NCBI GenBank assembly: GCA_945862415.1
Contig: CAMAYP010000004.1
Coordinates: 1 to 58,577, forward strand
DNA length: 58,577 nucleotides
Source of the DNA: Chryseobacterium gleum
Lineage (GTDB): Bacteria; Bacteroidota; Bacteroidia; Flavobacteriales_D; Sanyastnellaceae
Reading direction: 5' to 3'
Below the pieces are notes generated by a model. It saw nothing but the letters and a program-made list of their open reading frames with translations, did not search any database and was not told the DNA's origin. Numbering within the stretch: the stretch's first letter is position 1; each line of letters begins with the position of its first letter. A program made the translations under genes and the position numbers. Positions 18,829-26,599 of this stretch are shown piece by piece.

Positions 18829-20058
18829 TTATGCCTCTCGATTCATGAAGTGATCTAAGCCTTCTTCGGGAGAAATTAGGGAAGGTTTCAGCTCGAGAAT
18901 GCGCTTGATAACCTCTTCCATCACAGTGTCCGGGCAGGATGCACCGCTTGTTATCAAGATTCGAAGAGGTTCTTTGACAGGGATCCAGTCGGAGGTTTCA
19001 ACATGGCTGTGAGTGTTGTAATGAAAGTGTTTGATCAGGTTTTCATTGACAATTTCGGTTGAATCCTGTATGAAGTAGGTCGGAAATTTAGACTCTAGGA
19101 TGGTCACGATTTGCGATGTGTTGGAGCTGTTATAACCGCCAATCACGAGTGCTAAATCGGCATTGCTCTCCAAGGCCGCAAGCGTCGATTGTTGGTTGTC
19201 GTTGGTCGCATAGCATAGCGTGTCGCGCGTGTCGGCGAAATAATCTTTTGAGCCTTCACCGTGTTTATCTGTCATGATGCCCTTGAAAAAATCAGCGATT
19301 TCTTGGGTCTCACTCGCAAGCATGGTTGTTTGATTTACCACACCGACGCGCTCTAAATCGGTTTCGGGATTAAACCCGCTGGAAACTCTCGAATGAAAGC
19401 GTTCCATTAACTCAGCGGCATTCAGCTTGCCCAACATGAACTGTCCAAGAATTGCGGCTTCTTGTATGTCGCGCACAATAATTGAGGGAGCGTTCTGATA
19501 GCTATGCGAAAATGTTGCACGTGTCTCTTCGTGCTTGTGCTTGCCGTGTATGATGATCGTGAAACCACTTTTGCCAATTTCTGCTGATCGCTTCCATACT
19601 TTTTCTACAAACGGACAAGTAGTGTTATAACGTGCCAATTCCACACCTTTCGACGCAAGTAACTGCTCAGTTTCTATGGTCGTTCCAAAGGCTGGTATAA
19701 TTACTACATCGTCTGAATGAATATCATCCCATGGATGAAGCTGTCTTCCTTCGGTGTCCAAAATGAACTTCAATCCGCGGCCCTCTAGGTCTTCATTCAC
19801 GGCAGGGTTGTGTATCATCTGACTGAGCAGGAACAGGCGTTTGCCCGGATTTTCTCGTATGGCTTTATAGGAGCGCTCAATGGCGTTTTCTACACCATAG
19901 CAAAATCCGAAGTGTCTGGGAAAAATGAAGGTGATGTTGCCTAGTGAGAGTTCGCCCGGAGTGAAATCCTGCTTCCGCGGATCCAAATCCTTTCGACGGT
20001 TTTTTATTTCGCCAATAATGGCTGAACGATAGTGTTCCGGAATGTCGAATTTTTTCAC
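18829..20058 (-). CDS. ispH: 4-hydroxy-3-methylbut-2-enyl diphosphate reductase
   Basis: The last enzyme of the MEP isoprenoid pathway, an iron-sulfur protein that yields IPP and DMAPP. The three cluster-binding cysteines are visible at about residues 53 (FGFCYGVENA), 148 (NTTCPFVEKVW) and 375 (SGASCPDTVME). At 409 residues it is longer than the ~315-residue E. coli form and resembles the longer plant/cyanobacterial-like form also found in Bacteroidota, with an N-terminal extension. It overlaps the upstream hypothetical gene by 4 bases. It supplies precursors that the crt operon uses. Confidence 0.96.
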   Translation of the reverse strand: MKKFDIPEHYRSAIIGEIKNRRKDLDPRKQDFTPGELSLGNITFIFPRHFGFCYGVENAIERSYKAIRENPGKRLFLLSQMIHNPAVNEDLEGRGLKFILDTEGRQLHPWDDIHSDDVVIIPAFGTTIETEQLLASKGVELARYNTTCPFVEKVWKRSAEIGKSGFTIIIHGKHKHEETRATFSHSYQNAPSIIVRDIQEAAILGQFMLGKLNAAELMERFHSRVSSGFNPETDLERVGVVNQTTMLASETQEIADFFKGIMTDKHGEGSKDYFADTRDTLCYATNDNQQSTLAALESNADLALVIGGYNSSNTSQIVTILESKFPTYFIQDSTEIVNENLIKHFHYNTHSHVETSDWIPVKEPLRILITSGASCPDTVMEEVIKRILELKPSLISPEEGLDHFMNREA

Positions 20059-20582
20059 CTTGCTGTTTTATTTTTCATCAACGACTGAACGTAGGATTCC
20101 ATCTTGTCTTTTTTGTAAGCCTTCGTGATTGGTTGCAATGCTTTGATTTTTCGAAGGTCATCGTCTGCGCGAATCATAAATGCAACGCAATCAAAACCAC
20201 TTATCGCCGCCTGTAGTTCATTGCAATCTGTGTTTTTTGAAAGTTTGCATTGGGCTACTCCGTGTATGTAAGGAAACAGTAAATCGGGATAGTCCACATA
20301 AAAAGGAAGTGCGTCTGAATCGATGTGAATCTTTATTCTCGGGCTACCGCAAATCCATTCCATTACAAATAGATTTGCTTTGCCACGCATCGCGACGTCA
20401 TCGTTCAGCGGTGTTGAGGTGAGCCATTGCAGCGTGCGCAGAACTAATTCTTCATCGCGCTTATAATCGCGCGTGGTTTTCCATTCATGCTTTTCAGGCA
20501 GTTTCGGACATTTGCCTGCTTGTGCCGCTATTAGGAGGGGAGCGAAACAGATGAGGCAAACAAGACCGAAGCGTATTTCCAT
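20055..20582 (-). CDS. Secreted hypothetical protein
   Basis: A 175-residue protein with an N-terminal signal peptide (MEIRFGLVCLICFAPLLIAAQA). The mature part has WLTSTPLN, several lysine/aspartate-rich helices and conserved-looking cysteines (KCPKLP, WICGSP, QCKLS, DCNEL). I do not recognise the family and see no catalytic motif. It lies between the saccharopine dehydrogenase-like gene and ispH with 2-base and 4-base junctions, so it belongs to that operon. Confidence 0.75.
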   Translation of the reverse strand: MEIRFGLVCLICFAPLLIAAQAGKCPKLPEKHEWKTTRDYKRDEELVLRTLQWLTSTPLNDDVAMRGKANLFVMEWICGSPRIKIHIDSDALPFYVDYPDLLFPYIHGVAQCKLSKNTDCNELQAAISGFDCVAFMIRADDDLRKIKALQPITKAYKKDKMESYVQSLMKNKTAR

Positions 20583-20584
20583 GC

Positions 20585-21913
20585 TTAAAGAGTATGTTCA
20601 GTTTCTGAAAAACTGATTCCCATTTCTTCCAATTCTCGCAAGACAGGCTCGTATATAGATGAATTCGTAGGCAATTGCACTCCACTCAATTGCCAATTAC
20701 CCTGCAAAATGTGCTTAGCGGCTATGGCTATTGGTAAACCAACGGTCTTAGACATGGCGGTGTGAACGGGGTCATCTCCATAGCTAACGAGCTTGGATTG
20801 TATTTCCTTGGTCAGACCGTTGAGGTTATATCGGAAGCGATGCCACATAACAATCATGTCTTTGTCGTTAGCTTCCAGTATCCAGCGGTTTTCAATCAGA
20901 CGCTGTAACGCTTGCGCAGGACTGCCAGACTCTATTCCTACCGGATTGTTCTCGAAAATTCCCAGCCACTTTAGCTTATCAATAATTGCGCTGCTAACAT
21001 TCAAATAGGATTGCAAACGACTTTGAATGTCGCCTTCGCCTTCTGGTAAAAAGGAATTAGTGAGTGACTCCCAACTGGCCTCTTTGCCAAAGTTCATAAC
21101 GAAGGAGTCGTCGGTTAACCCCAATTGTACGAGTGCATTCCACGCGGCGCAATAACCGGACTTTCGCAAGGTTCCGCGATACAGTGTGGGAATGTCCTCA
21201 AGTTTATAGAGACTCAGGTATTTTAGAGAGTCACGATTGCCATAGCCTTCGAATTGGCCATCCGTCCCAAGATCAACCATAGTTACGCGCTCGAATAGTC
21301 GCTGGTACGGAATACATTTTACTCCGCCATTCTCTTTATATCGCGCCGTACCGCCATATCCGGCCAGTATTACATTGCGAGGGTTCCAGGTTATTTTGTA
21401 ATGCCATGGATTGTTGTCGCTGACGGGCGCAATAAGGCCACCTGTAAATGATTCAAAGGATTCCAGTTGGGCACCTTCAGCTTTCAAACGATCAATGATC
21501 TTCATCGCCGACATGTGGTCGATGCCGGGATCAACCCCCATTTCATTCAGAATAACAATTCCCTTTTCCTTGGCCACTCCATCGAGTTGCCACATTTCAT
21601 CGGGTATGTAACTGGGGGTGATAACGTTTTTGCCAAATTCGATGCAATCTTTAGCTACTTCCATGTGCATAGAAGCGGGAAGCATGGAGATAACCAAATC
21701 GGCACGCTCTATTTCACTTCGACGTTGTAGAACATTCGAGGCATCCAACTTGAATGCTACTCCATGTTTTGAGCCTCCGATTTTTGACGTGGCAAATGAA
21801 ATATCCATGTCACCCACGCGAAGCTGCCAATCAAACAATGGTGAATGTTCTAACAGGTATTTTATCAGGTTAGCACTGCTGCGTCCTGCACCAATAATGA
21901 GTATGTTTTTCAT
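20585..21913 (-). CDS. Saccharopine dehydrogenase-family oxidoreductase
   Basis: A 442-residue protein with an N-terminal NAD(P)-binding fold (ILIIGAGRSSANLIKYLL), the saccharopine dehydrogenase signature GVDPGIDHMSAMKIID and a C-terminal domain typical of saccharopine reductases. Plausible roles are lysine degradation through saccharopine or the related lysine 6-dehydrogenase; context does not decide. The frame opens 51 codons further upstream at 22066, but that would run through the divergent promoter region and overlap the next gene. The start at 21913 (MKNILIIGAG) sits 15 bases after an exact minus-strand TAnnTTTG box. Confidence 0.9.
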   Translation of the reverse strand: MKNILIIGAGRSSANLIKYLLEHSPLFDWQLRVGDMDISFATSKIGGSKHGVAFKLDASNVLQRRSEIERADLVISMLPASMHMEVAKDCIEFGKNVITPSYIPDEMWQLDGVAKEKGIVILNEMGVDPGIDHMSAMKIIDRLKAEGAQLESFESFTGGLIAPVSDNNPWHYKITWNPRNVILAGYGGTARYKENGGVKCIPYQRLFERVTMVDLGTDGQFEGYGNRDSLKYLSLYKLEDIPTLYRGTLRKSGYCAAWNALVQLGLTDDSFVMNFGKEASWESLTNSFLPEGEGDIQSRLQSYLNVSSAIIDKLKWLGIFENNPVGIESGSPAQALQRLIENRWILEANDKDMIVMWHRFRYNLNGLTKEIQSKLVSYGDDPVHTAMSKTVGLPIAIAAKHILQGNWQLSGVQLPTNSSIYEPVLRELEEMGISFSETEHTL

Positions 21914-21951: not shown

Positions 21952-21979
21952 TTGGCTCGAATCGAATTGAGTATTTTTG
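21952..21979 (+). promoter_or_regulatory. Promoter (TTG, 17-base spacer, TATTTTTG) of the DUF4476 gene
   Basis: TTG at 21952-21954 and an exact TAnnTTTG box at 21972-21979 with a 17-base spacer. The transcript would have a leader of about 45-50 bases. The box runs into TTTGGCACGG (21976-21985), a 10-mer also found before the last gene of this locus. GG at 21979-21980 and GC at 21991-21992 are 10 bases apart, as in sigma-54 promoters, which is an alternative reading. Confidence 0.6.
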
Positions 21980-22031: not shown

Positions 22032-23105
22032 ATGAAACACGTTTTTACGATTCTTTTATTCACCATGGCTTGTGTTCAATTATCAGCTCAAGCTTCTGCG
22101 GTTGTTTTTTCAGAGTCAGGTGAGAAGTTCACGGTCTATTTAAATGGTGAAAAGAAAAACAATGCTCCTCAGGCAAATGTCAAAATTCAAGCGCTAACAT
22201 CCGATTTTTATCAGGCACGCATTGACTTTGAAGATGCAATGCTACCGGATTTTTCTGAGGGCAATTTTGCAGTGCAGAAGGGCTCTGAGGTAACGTACAT
22301 CGTGAAGAGAAACAAAAAAGGCGAATTTGTTCTTCGTTATTATGGACAAACAGATGGCGCTGAGGCAGCTGAGGCTCTTGAGTCACATACAGAAGTTAAG
22401 TCTTTTGCTGAAGTTGACGACACAGAGCATCATTCGGAGGATGTGCAGATAAACCAAACTATTTCAATTCAGGAACAGCCGGTTGCCAAAACTACAGTTA
22501 CCCAAACGACAACTACAACTACCAAATCACAGCCTGTTAAGGCTGCACCCGCAACCGGAGGAAATGTGTCGATGGGCATTAATGTCGATGGTGTTAACAT
22601 GGGTATCAGCATCAATGCCTCTGAAATGGGCGGAGATATGGGTATGAATATGAATATGGATGTTGAAGAAACCCAGCACACTACAATTACTACTACAACA
22701 ACTACCACCACTGCACAGCCTGAACCAGCGCCTAAGCCTGCTGCAAAACCGGTAACTAAGCCTGCCCCAGCTCCTGCTCCTGTTTCCGCTCCGGCAAAAC
22801 CTACAGGCCGCTGCGCAAGTTCTATGGCTCCGGCTTCCTTTACCAAGGCAAAGGATAATATCTCGGCCGGCAGCTTTGAGGATTCCAAGATGACCGTGGC
22901 AAAGCAAGTTACTAAGGCCAATTGCCTCACTGCTGCTCAAATAGCTGAGGTAATGGGACTATTCAGTTTTGAGGATAGCAAGTTGCAATACGCCAAGTAT
23001 GCATACGATTTCTGCTACAACCAAGGCGATTACTACGAGGTGAATGCTGCTTTTACATTTGAATCGAGTATTGAAGACTTGAATCAATTCTTGGAATCGA
23101 AGTAA
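22032..23105 (+). CDS. Secreted DUF4476 protein with low-complexity linkers
   Basis: A 357-residue protein. A signal peptide (cleavage near residue 21) is followed by a beta-rich N-terminal domain (to ~residue 115), a Thr-rich stretch, a Gly/Met/Asn-rich segment (about 180-210), a second Thr-run and a Pro/Ala/Lys-rich linker (to ~260). The C-terminal DUF4476 domain (about 265-357) has the family repeats SFEDSKM, FSFEDSKLQYAKYAYDFCYNQ and AAFTFESSIEDLNQFL. DUF4476 is a Bacteroidota family of unknown function. It leads a locus with three lipoproteins and is 23 bases upstream of the next gene. Confidence 0.88.
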   Translation: MKHVFTILLFTMACVQLSAQASAVVFSESGEKFTVYLNGEKKNNAPQANVKIQALTSDFYQARIDFEDAMLPDFSEGNFAVQKGSEVTYIVKRNKKGEFVLRYYGQTDGAEAAEALESHTEVKSFAEVDDTEHHSEDVQINQTISIQEQPVAKTTVTQTTTTTTKSQPVKAAPATGGNVSMGINVDGVNMGISINASEMGGDMGMNMNMDVEETQHTTITTTTTTTTAQPEPAPKPAAKPVTKPAPAPAPVSAPAKPTGRCASSMAPASFTKAKDNISAGSFEDSKMTVAKQVTKANCLTAAQIAEVMGLFSFEDSKLQYAKYAYDFCYNQGDYYEVNAAFTFESSIEDLNQFLESK

Positions 23106-23128
23106 TTCGTAAACACTCCTTTTGAATT

Positions 23129-24502
23129 ATGAATCGCTTTCTTGTAATAGCGCTTATTTCGATTATGGTTGCTGCGGCTTCATGCCATAGCAGCAAGCAC
23201 TATTTCAAAGTTGGATCAAAGCAGGAAAACGGTGGATTGGTAAATGAGGCCGCTGAGAGTTATTACATAGCACTTCAGCGCAATCGAAGCAACGTGAATG
23301 CACAAATTGCAATGAAGAGAAGTGGGCAATTGGTGTTGAACGGTTTGCTCAATGATTTCGCCAAGCAAAAGAATTTTGGTGATCAGAAAGCTGCAGTGTA
23401 CGCATTTCAACAGGCTCGTAACTATCGCGACCGAATTCAAAGTGTGGGTGTTTCTCTTTTGCTTTCTGATATCTATGAGAAGGACTACCAGGATTGCAAG
23501 AACGTCTACCTGAAAAACCTGTACGATGAAGGTAATGCGCTCTTATTGGAGAAGAAGTTTGCGGAAGCGGAGAAACGATTTAATGAAATTAATCAGCTTG
23601 ATCCTACCTACAAGGATGCCGGCGATTTGAGCGACATTGCTTTTTTGGAGCCGCTTTATCAGCAGGGAAAGGTCGCAATGTCACTCGAGCATTATCGTGA
23701 GGCGCAAGGTTGCTTTCAGAAGGTAATTGCTCGAAGAAGTTCATACAAGGACGCTGTAGCGATGAGTCGGGAATGCATTGAAAAGGGAAGGTTCACCATT
23801 GCCCTTGTTGATTTTAAGAACGCCAGTAATTCTCCTGGCATGGAGGCAAAAATGGCGGCTTATACACTCGATGCTTTGACGTCTAGCGAAGATCCTTTCA
23901 TTCACGTTGTGGACAGAGAGAATTTGCAAAACATCATCAACGAGCAGCATTTGCAAATGACCGGTATTATTGATGAAAATACCGCTGTCACTGTTGGTGA
24001 GTTGGTAGGAGCCAAAGCAATTCTGACTGGCACTGTGCTGAGTTACTCGGAAAAGAAGGGTACCTTACGAAGCAAACAACGGGAAGGATATACGACCTAC
24101 CAAGAGCGAGTGCTGAATCGAACCGACGGTAAGTACTATATGCAAACGTTGTATCGGCCTTGCAACTATACGGAATACTACAATTCGAATTCCTGCACTG
24201 TTTCCTTCCAGTACAAATTGACGAATATTAAAACAGGCGAGATTATCGCTACGGAAATTATTGAGAAGACGCTTAATGACGAAGTTATTTATGGTCGTTT
24301 TGATGGAGACGTCAACACACTATGGCCGGCCGGGCAAGGAGCTCCAAACATGAATCAAAATGATCGTCGAGCATTATTAGCGATGATGAATGCTCGTCAA
24401 GAAGTGAAATCATCAGGTGAATTATCAAATGCGCTGTTCGGTCAGCTTTCAACTCAAATGACAACTGCAATTGACACGGCAGTAAAGGAAATAGTAAAAT
24501 GA
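23129..24502 (+). CDS. Lipoprotein with TPR-like repeats and a CsgG-like domain
   Basis: A 457-residue protein with a lipobox (AAASC, lipidated Cys19). Residues ~30-230 contain tetratricopeptide-like repeats (YEKDYQDCKNVYLKNL, ALLLEKKFAEAEKRFNEI, YREAQGCFQKVIARRSSYKDA). The following region (VVDRENLQNIINEQHLQMTG...VGELVGAKAILTGTVL) looks like the CsgG/LpoB/FlgO-type fold, in which a 'VDR..L..I..EQ' strand precedes 'G...GA.ai..G'. It is probably anchored in the outer membrane facing the periplasm. The 3' end overlaps the next gene by 4 bases (ATGA). The CsgG-like assignment is by motif only. Confidence 0.78.
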   Translation: MNRFLVIALISIMVAAASCHSSKHYFKVGSKQENGGLVNEAAESYYIALQRNRSNVNAQIAMKRSGQLVLNGLLNDFAKQKNFGDQKAAVYAFQQARNYRDRIQSVGVSLLLSDIYEKDYQDCKNVYLKNLYDEGNALLLEKKFAEAEKRFNEINQLDPTYKDAGDLSDIAFLEPLYQQGKVAMSLEHYREAQGCFQKVIARRSSYKDAVAMSRECIEKGRFTIALVDFKNASNSPGMEAKMAAYTLDALTSSEDPFIHVVDRENLQNIINEQHLQMTGIIDENTAVTVGELVGAKAILTGTVLSYSEKKGTLRSKQREGYTTYQERVLNRTDGKYYMQTLYRPCNYTEYYNSNSCTVSFQYKLTNIKTGEIIATEIIEKTLNDEVIYGRFDGDVNTLWPAGQGAPNMNQNDRRALLAMMNARQEVKSSGELSNALFGQLSTQMTTAIDTAVKEIVK

Positions 24503-25887
24503 AATTGAATAGGCTTTTAATAATTCTCATCCTCGCGTTGATGGCGGCCTGTAAAGGCAAAAAGGATACTGCAGCAGCGGGCCAACAAGCCACCATTGAA
24601 ATGCCGCCACCCGAATGGGTTGGCAATCGTCCGCATTCTGCCGTGCATTACATTGGTGTCGGATCGTGCAGTAAATTAAATCGACCCTACGACTATCAAA
24701 CCATTGCTAAGAAAAATGCGCTTAATGACCTGGCTTCGGAAATTAGCGTGCGTGTGCAAGGGCAAACATTTCTGAATTCGTTGGAAGTGAATAAAAGTTT
24801 CAGCGAGGAATTTATTTCGAATGTATCCACTTCCACGGATGCGAAAATCGAAGAGTATGAAATTGCTGGAACCTGGGAAAACAAAAACGAGTTCTGGGTT
24901 TTCTATCGGCTAGACAAAGCGCAATATCAGGCGCAGCAAATGGCGAAAAAATCAGCGGCATTAAACCTGGCAAATGACTTTTACCAAAAGGGAATTACCG
25001 CAGAGCAAAACGCAAACGTAGCGGTGGCTTTCGATTTATATATGCGTGGCATTTTTGCCCTGAAGGATTATTGGAATGAGAGCAATGAATTCACGACCGC
25101 AAGTGGAAAGGTATATCTGGACAATGAAATTTTCAGTTCCATGCAGCGAATGTGTGGAAGCCTGCAGCTGAAAGTCGACAAGAGTAAAGTGTTGCTTACT
25201 TCGGATAATCAATTTTCGCAGGAGGTTATGGCCACGCTCATGCTCGGAAACCAGTCGGTGAAGGGCCTTATGGTGAAATATAGCTATGAGAAAAGCCAAG
25301 GGCTTCATCGTGGTGAGGTTCTAACGACAGAAGTCGGTCATGCTGCTGTGCCGGTAAACGAGGTGAACTTTGCGTTGCAAGGCAATGCAGTTACGATTGA
25401 GCTTGACTTGAGTAAGCTGAAGGTGCAGGACCTTGATCAGAAGGTACAAGACGGATTTATACAATCCTTTAAAACCGAGAAGAAGGTGTTGCCTATAGAA
25501 GCTGTACTTCCATCGTTTTACATTACTTCTTCGGAGTTGAATTATGGCTTACCCACCAGTGGCAGGATATTGCAAACAGCACTGTCTGGAGCGCTTGTAG
25601 CAAAGGGACTTCGCATTGCCGGCTCTGCATCAGAAGCAGATTTTGTGGCAACAATAGAATCGAACACGAAGGAAGGTGGTCAGGCCAATGGGTTTGTGGT
25701 CGCCTTTCTTGAAGTTAATCTGGTAGTGAAGAACAGAAGGAGCGGAGACGTTGCTTTCAGCGAAACACTTGCTTCAGTGAAGGGGCTCCAATTAAACAAG
25801 GATGCAGCAGGTATCGAAGCCTATAAAAAGGGGAAGGAAAAGGTGGAGCAACAATTAACCCCCAAGTTGCTCCAATCAATTTTATGA
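24499..25887 (+). CDS. LPP20-family-like lipoprotein (large)
   Basis: A 462-residue lipoprotein (LMAAC, lipidated Cys18). Residues ~35-150 have the LPP20 pattern: PPPEWVGNRP, YIGVGSCS, then AKKNALNDLASEISVRVQG and IAGTWENKNEFWVFYRL. The remaining ~300 residues are beta-rich with no recognised motif; one stretch (ATIESNTKEGG...VNLVVKNRRSGDVAFSE) resembles CsgG-like strands. It is translationally coupled to the TPR lipoprotein. Proteobacterial relatives of LPP20 include the flagellar outer-membrane protein FlgP. Confidence 0.78.
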   Translation: MKLNRLLIILILALMAACKGKKDTAAAGQQATIEMPPPEWVGNRPHSAVHYIGVGSCSKLNRPYDYQTIAKKNALNDLASEISVRVQGQTFLNSLEVNKSFSEEFISNVSTSTDAKIEEYEIAGTWENKNEFWVFYRLDKAQYQAQQMAKKSAALNLANDFYQKGITAEQNANVAVAFDLYMRGIFALKDYWNESNEFTTASGKVYLDNEIFSSMQRMCGSLQLKVDKSKVLLTSDNQFSQEVMATLMLGNQSVKGLMVKYSYEKSQGLHRGEVLTTEVGHAAVPVNEVNFALQGNAVTIELDLSKLKVQDLDQKVQDGFIQSFKTEKKVLPIEAVLPSFYITSSELNYGLPTSGRILQTALSGALVAKGLRIAGSASEADFVATIESNTKEGGQANGFVVAFLEVNLVVKNRRSGDVAFSETLASVKGLQLNKDAAGIEAYKKGKEKVEQQLTPKLLQSIL

Positions 25888-25900
25888 TCCGAAATTGCCT

Positions 25901-25927
25901 TTGGCACGGTTGTAGAAATTACTTTAG
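25901..25927 (+). promoter_or_regulatory. Putative promoter of the small LPP20-like gene
   Basis: TTG at 25901-25903 and TACTTTAG at 25920-25927 (one mismatch to TAnnTTTG), 16-base spacer, about 37 bases before the ATG. It includes TTTGGCACGG (25900-25909), identical to the 10-mer in the promoter region of the DUF4476 gene, suggesting that the two transcription units are co-regulated. Confidence 0.4.
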
Positions 25928-25964
25928 CAAAACCAAACACGAATAATCAATAAATTTAGTTCCT

Positions 25965-26549
25965 ATGAAAACTCGTCATTTTACACTCGTTATGCTTGTT
26001 GCCGTTGTGGCTTTGATGGCTACCTCTTGCAAGAAAAACAAGAAGGCCGTTGAAACTCCAAAGCCTACCGGAGAAGTACTTATCAATGAATATTGCACCG
26101 GTGAGCAGTACCAGAGCAACAAGGATGCTTTCCGTGCTACTGCAACAGGCGAGAGCATGGATCGTGAGACTGCAAAGAAGAAGGCTCGTTCAAATGCTCA
26201 GTCAGAGTTGGCCAAAACCATTAGCAGCACTATGAAAATTGTCGGTGATAACTACGTAAACTCAACTGAGTTCAACAACAAAGAAGAGGTGACCGAAACT
26301 TTTCAGGAAATGGCTCGCACAGTGGTTGATCAGGAATTGCGTGGTGCAATTGAAATCTGTGAGAAGCTAACACAGCGTGAGAATGGAACATTTGTAAGCT
26401 ACGTGGCCATCGAATTGAGCGGCTCCAAGATTGCTGATGCATACAACTCAGGTCTTTCTCAGAATGAGAAATTGAAGGCAGACTACAACTACGAAAAGTT
26501 CAAGGATACTTTCGAAAAGGAAATGGAGAAAATGGCGAACGGTAAGTAA
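25965..26549 (+). CDS. LPP20-family-like lipoprotein (small)
   Basis: A 194-residue lipoprotein (MATSC, lipidated Cys22, followed by a basic KKNKK). The body follows the LPP20 pattern: FRATATGESMDRETAKKKARSNAQSELAKTISS, then VVDQELRGAIEICEKLTQRENGTFVSYVAIEL. The C-terminal ~40 residues are strongly charged (lysine/glutamate helix). It is related in architecture to the first third of the preceding gene, which suggests duplication of an LPP20 module. A gap of 77 bases with its own putative promoter separates them. The terminator at 26569-26599 follows. Confidence 0.8.
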   Translation: MKTRHFTLVMLVAVVALMATSCKKNKKAVETPKPTGEVLINEYCTGEQYQSNKDAFRATATGESMDRETAKKKARSNAQSELAKTISSTMKIVGDNYVNSTEFNNKEEVTETFQEMARTVVDQELRGAIEICEKLTQRENGTFVSYVAIELSGSKIADAYNSGLSQNEKLKADYNYEKFKDTFEKEMEKMANGK

Positions 26550-26568: not shown

Positions 26569-26599
26569 AAAAAACCCTCGCATTGCGAGGGTTTTTTTA
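26569..26599. terminator. Bidirectional Rho-independent terminator
   Basis: A perfect hairpin AAAACCCTCGC-ATT-GCGAGGGTTTT flanked by A-runs on the left and a T-run on the right, so it works in both directions. It lies between the convergent LPP20-like gene (stop 26549) and icd (stop 26617). Confidence 0.9.

Follow-up and report, generated by a model that had tools for sequence, protein, structure and literature searches.

The locus analysed here raises the question of what lipoproteins resembling flagellar and curli components may do in a genome in which flagellar and curli genes are not in evidence. It lies in a window of 58,577 nucleotides, the whole stretch of DNA that was analysed, and comprises four open reading frames on one strand, designated A to D (Table 1), all of which were confirmed at the positions where a reading of the letters alone had placed them (22032-26549). 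The absence of flagellar and curli genes, at first noted for the window, was followed into the 87% complete genome: neither FlgI, the one flagellar gene searched for, nor CsgF was found, with three control genomes positive for FlgI and the E. coli control positive for CsgF.

Table 1. Features of the A-D locus (positions refer to the window)
Feature	Positions	Strand	Description
Gene A	22032..23105	+	Secreted 357-aa protein; low-complexity Thr/Pro-rich linker; C-terminal DUF4476 (residues 265-354)
Gene B	23129..24502	+	457-aa lipoprotein; helical/TPR arm (22-219); CsgG/PelC/FlgT-M/TolB-N-like domain (220-457)
Gene C	24499..25887	+	462-aa lipoprotein; four domains
Gene D	25965..26549	+	194-aa LPP20-type lipoprotein; most conserved member
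Possible Bacteroidota-type promoter, weak	21952..21979	+	TTG-N17-TATTTTTG, read in the sequence
Terminator-like inverted repeat, 13 pairs	26569..26597		T-run readable on both strands

Genes A and B are separated by 23 nt, B and C overlap by 4 nt (ATGA), and C and D lie 77 nt apart. Upstream of A is a divergent saccharopine-dehydrogenase-like gene, whose long ORF call overlaps A and whose start is likely near 21913 (MKNILIIGAGRSS), and downstream the strong inverted repeat sits between D and a convergent isocitrate dehydrogenase gene. The original prediction had bounded the locus by its own promoter and a strong terminator; the inverted repeat is terminator-like, but the promoter is weakly supported, since a scan returned nothing exceeding chance and the -7 element of the candidate is no commoner than chance (6 occurrences in the window against 4.8 expected). 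Further upstream, positions 20055-20582 of the - strand encode a secreted protein of 175 aa without a Pfam match; many relatives have it at the same place, between lytB/ispH and the saccharopine-dehydrogenase gene.

Comparison with family profiles identified A as the secreted DUF4476 protein that had been proposed (PF14771; E 3e-18, 66.2 bits versus a cut-off of 22.5), and B as the expected CsgG-like TPR lipoprotein, with TPR matches in Pfam and a match to CsgG (PF03783; E 1e-10, 41.5 bits versus a cut-off of 20.8) that covers profile positions 9-105 of 210 only. B scores below the cut-off for LpoB (PF13036; 20.1 bits versus 22.3), and no Pfam match to FlgO or FlgT was obtained among the A-D proteins. 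Of the two LPP20 lipoproteins that had been anticipated, C matches the family directly, over residues 38-139 only (PF02169; E 2e-14, 54.0 bits versus a cut-off of 25.9), whereas D, with 15.8 bits, stays below this cut-off. Membership of D in the LPP20 superfamily is nevertheless supported indirectly, because profile comparisons link it both to C (E 7e-7) and to a set of distant D-like homologues (E 8e-21), which themselves pass Pfam LPP20 at 7e-12. The profile of these distant homologues matches the H. pylori Lpp20 structure 5ok8 (E 1.7e-4), and that of C matches 4kzs (E 4e-5), an LPP20-family protein which we take to be HP1454; the D profile gave no confident PDB match.

The arrangement of B, C and D is strongly conserved. 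A search with C found it in 59 of 150 genomes of the order, and all 30 loci retrieved afterwards hold B, C and D in this order on one strand. With profile searches, the counts among 150 genomes were 59 for B, 60 for C and 60 for D, and 57 genomes have the complete trio; B and C are same-strand neighbours in 57/57, with gaps of 0-78 nt, and C and D lie next to each other in 56/59, the pair being divided between contigs in one of the exceptions. At six loci C and D are on opposite strands with their adjacency kept. The anticipated conservation of gene order is thereby established, and it far exceeds chance. A does not share it: the DUF4476 protein, counted at first as a member of the operon, is not obligatory, being encoded directly upstream of B in 28 of the 48 loci at which the upstream gene is visible. 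Because the linkage of B, C and D is kept when the flanks change and A accompanies them only in this fraction, B-C-D is a selected core and A a partial addition. A mutL - lytB/ispH - saccharopine-dehydrogenase block often lies upstream of the operon. That the gene order is due only to such a conserved chromosomal block was rejected, with 10 of the 53 named-genome loci that have B, C and D keeping them without the usual saccharopine-dehydrogenase neighbour; one of these 10 (L097) still has the first two genes of the block.

Named contigs with the operon are mostly from Flavobacteriales, with labels that include Crocinitomicaceae, Cryomorphaceae, Salibacter and Fluviicola, the last being the closest genus with a name that has C and D (L101), and identity to the nearest relative is 92% for D, 70% for B and 58% for C. 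Some genomes hold C and D without B, and D is alone at a few loci (L103, L105, L110). Operon genes are also carried by metagenome-assembled genomes labelled Chryseobacterium gleum (L031, L035, L045, L049, L055, L078); in some genomes so labelled the order is near-identical to that of the window, and the species label looks wrong. Elsewhere in the genome of the window are a second, unlinked D-like lipoprotein of 188 aa with a KVKEPFSG motif (L139:980-1543, contig C127), which is also found in most D-carrying genomes of the order, another protein with a CsgG domain, which also has TPRs and matches bacterial SH3 weakly (L157:1803-3056, contig C95) and is located near a weakly DnaJ-like gene, and a weak B-like paralogue (contig C83:4783-5592). 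A full B-like gene is found in addition to B in about 14 relatives of the same family.

The CsgG- and LPP20-type folds that had been expected were recovered in the predicted structures of B and C as well as in the profiles. In the AlphaFold model of B (51 sequences, mean pLDDT 87.7) the helices are followed by a CsgG-type domain with one exceptionally long beta-hairpin at about 297-366. This domain matches PelC (Z 14.7, 2.1 A) and FlgT (Z 14.7, 2.6 A), and further CsgG (Z 13.5), TolB(-N) (12.5), TraT (11.9) and LpoB (11.1), and also resembles a DUF330 lipoprotein. The model of C (58 sequences, pLDDT 86.4) comprises an LPP20 domain at 39-139, of low confidence at 85-115, a helical domain at 140-220, a macroglobulin-like sandwich at 220-336 and an LptE/PelC/FlgT-M-like domain at 337-462, the last of which resembles PelC (Z 11.1), FlgT and LptE. 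FlgT aligns to residues 49-462 of C, so that both its LPP20-like domain and its middle domain are covered; the overall rmsd is large owing to a different placement of the domains. The fold matches of the models did not include FlgO or FlgP, an absence that is not counted against them. PelC, CsgG, TraT and FlgT are ring formers; the fold resemblances of the predicted B and C structures do not in themselves show function.

CsgG is the best sequence match of B and its top Foldseek match, and the superposition with the membrane form of CsgG takes in 163 residues of B at 3.6 A, a larger number than with soluble PelC. Together with the exceptional length of the hairpin, this would fit an outer-membrane pore, in which an oligomer of B would insert hairpins as a barrel and export a peptide or protein, C and D acting as gates in the periplasm. 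Such a pore is nonetheless improbable, since the region of the B model equivalent to the second transmembrane hairpin of CsgG lacks a full return strand, the conserved hairpin is dominated by charged residues, no CsgF was found in the genome and no substrate gene is evident in the operon. A pattern scan of this first hairpin, ambiguous in its outcome, placed the best hydrophobic-face windows on the return strand only, and B differs from the curli channel also in having a helical-repeat arm. Of the three jobs proposed originally for the assembly, that of a pore is not supported; wall synthesis finds support in the neighbours of distant relatives described below.

PelC, LptE and TraT are the lipoproteins whose folds come nearest to the C-terminal domains of B and C, at about 10-19% identity over aligned residues. 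PelC, which is among the best fold matches of both proteins, lies below PelB, which has helical repeats as B does, and LptE matches C; by analogy, the operon might encode an accessory ring of a polysaccharide or lipid envelope exporter. We consider this rather doubtful, as none of the genes conserved next to B-C-D where flanks differ encodes a transporter, glycosyltransferase or barrel and no Pel, Lpt or conjugation genes lie near the operon.

The original comparison with the Vibrio H-ring, which is formed by FlgO, FlgP and FlgT (PMC7990780), could be sharpened. In both cases LPP20 and FlgT-middle/TolB-N domains are found in outer-membrane lipoproteins and their partners: B and C have FlgT-middle-like domains, C also has an FlgT-N/LPP20-like one, and D resembles FlgP in being a small LPP20 lipoprotein. 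However, C is a lipoprotein whereas FlgT is soluble in the periplasm, and there is no sequence match to the FlgO or FlgT families. In H. pylori, HP1454 and HP1456 (Lpp20) are encoded in one operon, and each of them binds FlgP and FapH; deletion of hp1456 caused no motor or bacitracin phenotype (PMC11756786). Like C-D, this operon pairs a multi-domain LPP20 protein with a small LPP20 lipoprotein, but no CsgG-type TPR lipoprotein is described alongside (PMC11756786), C has additional macroglobulin-like and LptE/PelC-like domains, and H. pylori is flagellated. The alignment of FlgT to B and to two domains of C, the FlgP-like D and the H. pylori interactions are consistent with a non-flagellar relative of the H-ring that stabilises the outer membrane mechanically, having no direct effect on wall enzymes. 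This reading, unlikely but deserving some weight, has against it the absence of a FlgI gene and of Pfam matches to FlgO or FlgT, and the genomic context of distant relatives, which favours the wall.

That context comes from the distant D-like lipoproteins, which 63 of 395 genomes in the phylum encode. Within 6 kb of the distant D-like gene, a second LPP20 gene is found at 18 of 39 loci, LpoB together with a COG3014-like lipoprotein at 9/39, in five families, and a gene for an MltC-type SLT (lytic transglycosylase) at 7/39. LpoB sits in the outer membrane and activates its synthase from there. We estimate that, with one or two LpoB genes in a 4-Mb genome, any particular gene would have LpoB within 6 kb in roughly 0.5% of cases, so that the observed proximity is not due to chance, even though a single genus supplies five of the nine loci. 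The LpoB and MltC neighbours thus support a link of the LPP20 pair to peptidoglycan synthesis and turnover, as judged from gene neighbourhood. The nine LpoB loci (L140, L159, L160, L161, L198, L203, L205, L207, L221) all hold the second LPP20 protein besides the COG3014-like lipoprotein, presumably of that family, which was recognised by eye, and five of the nine encode the MltC-type transglycosylase; no description of this cluster was found in the literature covered. Other distant D-like loci have a mixed context, with PEGA-domain proteins and the uncharacterised families X335, X485 and S514 (L144, L162, L163, L164, L143, L148, L165, L211, L214), and some S514 members have a very weak transglutaminase-like match. 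Profile comparison rejected B as a sequence homologue of either the COG3014-like protein or LpoB of the distant operons, and C aligns with a distant 346-aa LPP20 protein over the LPP20 part only, weakly. B and LpoB share a related fold and an outer-membrane lipoprotein nature, but B is much larger.

Anchoring was assessed from the lipoprotein signals. The lipobox cysteines of B, C and D are present in relatives too. In each of the three families the stretch that follows the lipidated cysteine, positions +2 to +6, is basic or neutral: the mean basic count is 1.1 to 2.9, and sequences with at least two acidic residues there number 0/51 for B, 1/54 for C and 4/56 for D. Known surface-export signals of Bacteroidota lipoproteins have at least two acidic residues at these positions (PMC5080379), and B, C and D do not carry such a signal, although the rule describes known signals and maybe not those of this family. 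As the residues after the lipidated cysteine are basic, without the acidic export signal, B, C and D are predicted to be anchored at the periplasmic face of the outer membrane.

Among the four readings, we tentatively prefer an outer-membrane lipoprotein scaffold tied to the peptidoglycan wall as the most likely, at somewhat less than an even chance. B, C and D would be attached to the outer membrane on its periplasmic side and together build a scaffold, probably in the shape of a ring or disk made from LPP20 and CsgG/PelC-type domains, with the helical-repeat arm of B spanning the periplasm. This scaffold would help to place or activate enzymes that build peptidoglycan or cut the wall, in a manner similar to LpoB, and A may serve as a lineage-specific periplasmic accessory. 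The conserved linkage, the folds of ring formers, the predicted periplasmic anchoring, the LpoB/MltC neighbours and the CsgG paralogue with its TPRs and weak SH3 match argue for the wall scaffold. Against it, the LpoB/MltC neighbours are confined to distant relatives, many of whose loci have the other neighbours listed above, the operon in the window adjoins no wall gene, B is without sequence homology to the COG3014-like protein or LpoB, and deletion of hp1456 is without motor or bacitracin phenotype (PMC11756786); the CsgG/PelC fold being common to proteins with very different jobs also counts against it. A bolder version holds that B-C-D forms a flagellum-free, H-ring-like lipoprotein ring that controls peptidoglycan synthesis, and that LPP20 proteins, the Lpp20 antigen of H. 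pylori among them, were originally a wall scaffold later reused by flagellar motors; this we regard as a long shot.

The operon combines known domain families in a new way and is conserved and apparently undescribed, as no description of B-C-D or of its LPP20-CsgG pairing was found in the literature covered, with most subscription papers lying outside it. B-C-D is kept together across a large group of aquatic bacteria, amounting to much of a Flavobacteriales order. Little is understood about LPP20 proteins, even though Lpp20 is a well-known antigen of H. pylori and FlgP builds flagellar disks, and a flagellum-free operon with two LPP20 lipoproteins, D being assigned indirectly, and a CsgG-fold protein offers a way to probe these folds outside flagella. 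The LpoB/MltC neighbours of distant relatives suggest a testable role in wall growth which, if true, would add a candidate envelope-to-wall linker in a phylum where such factors are little known.
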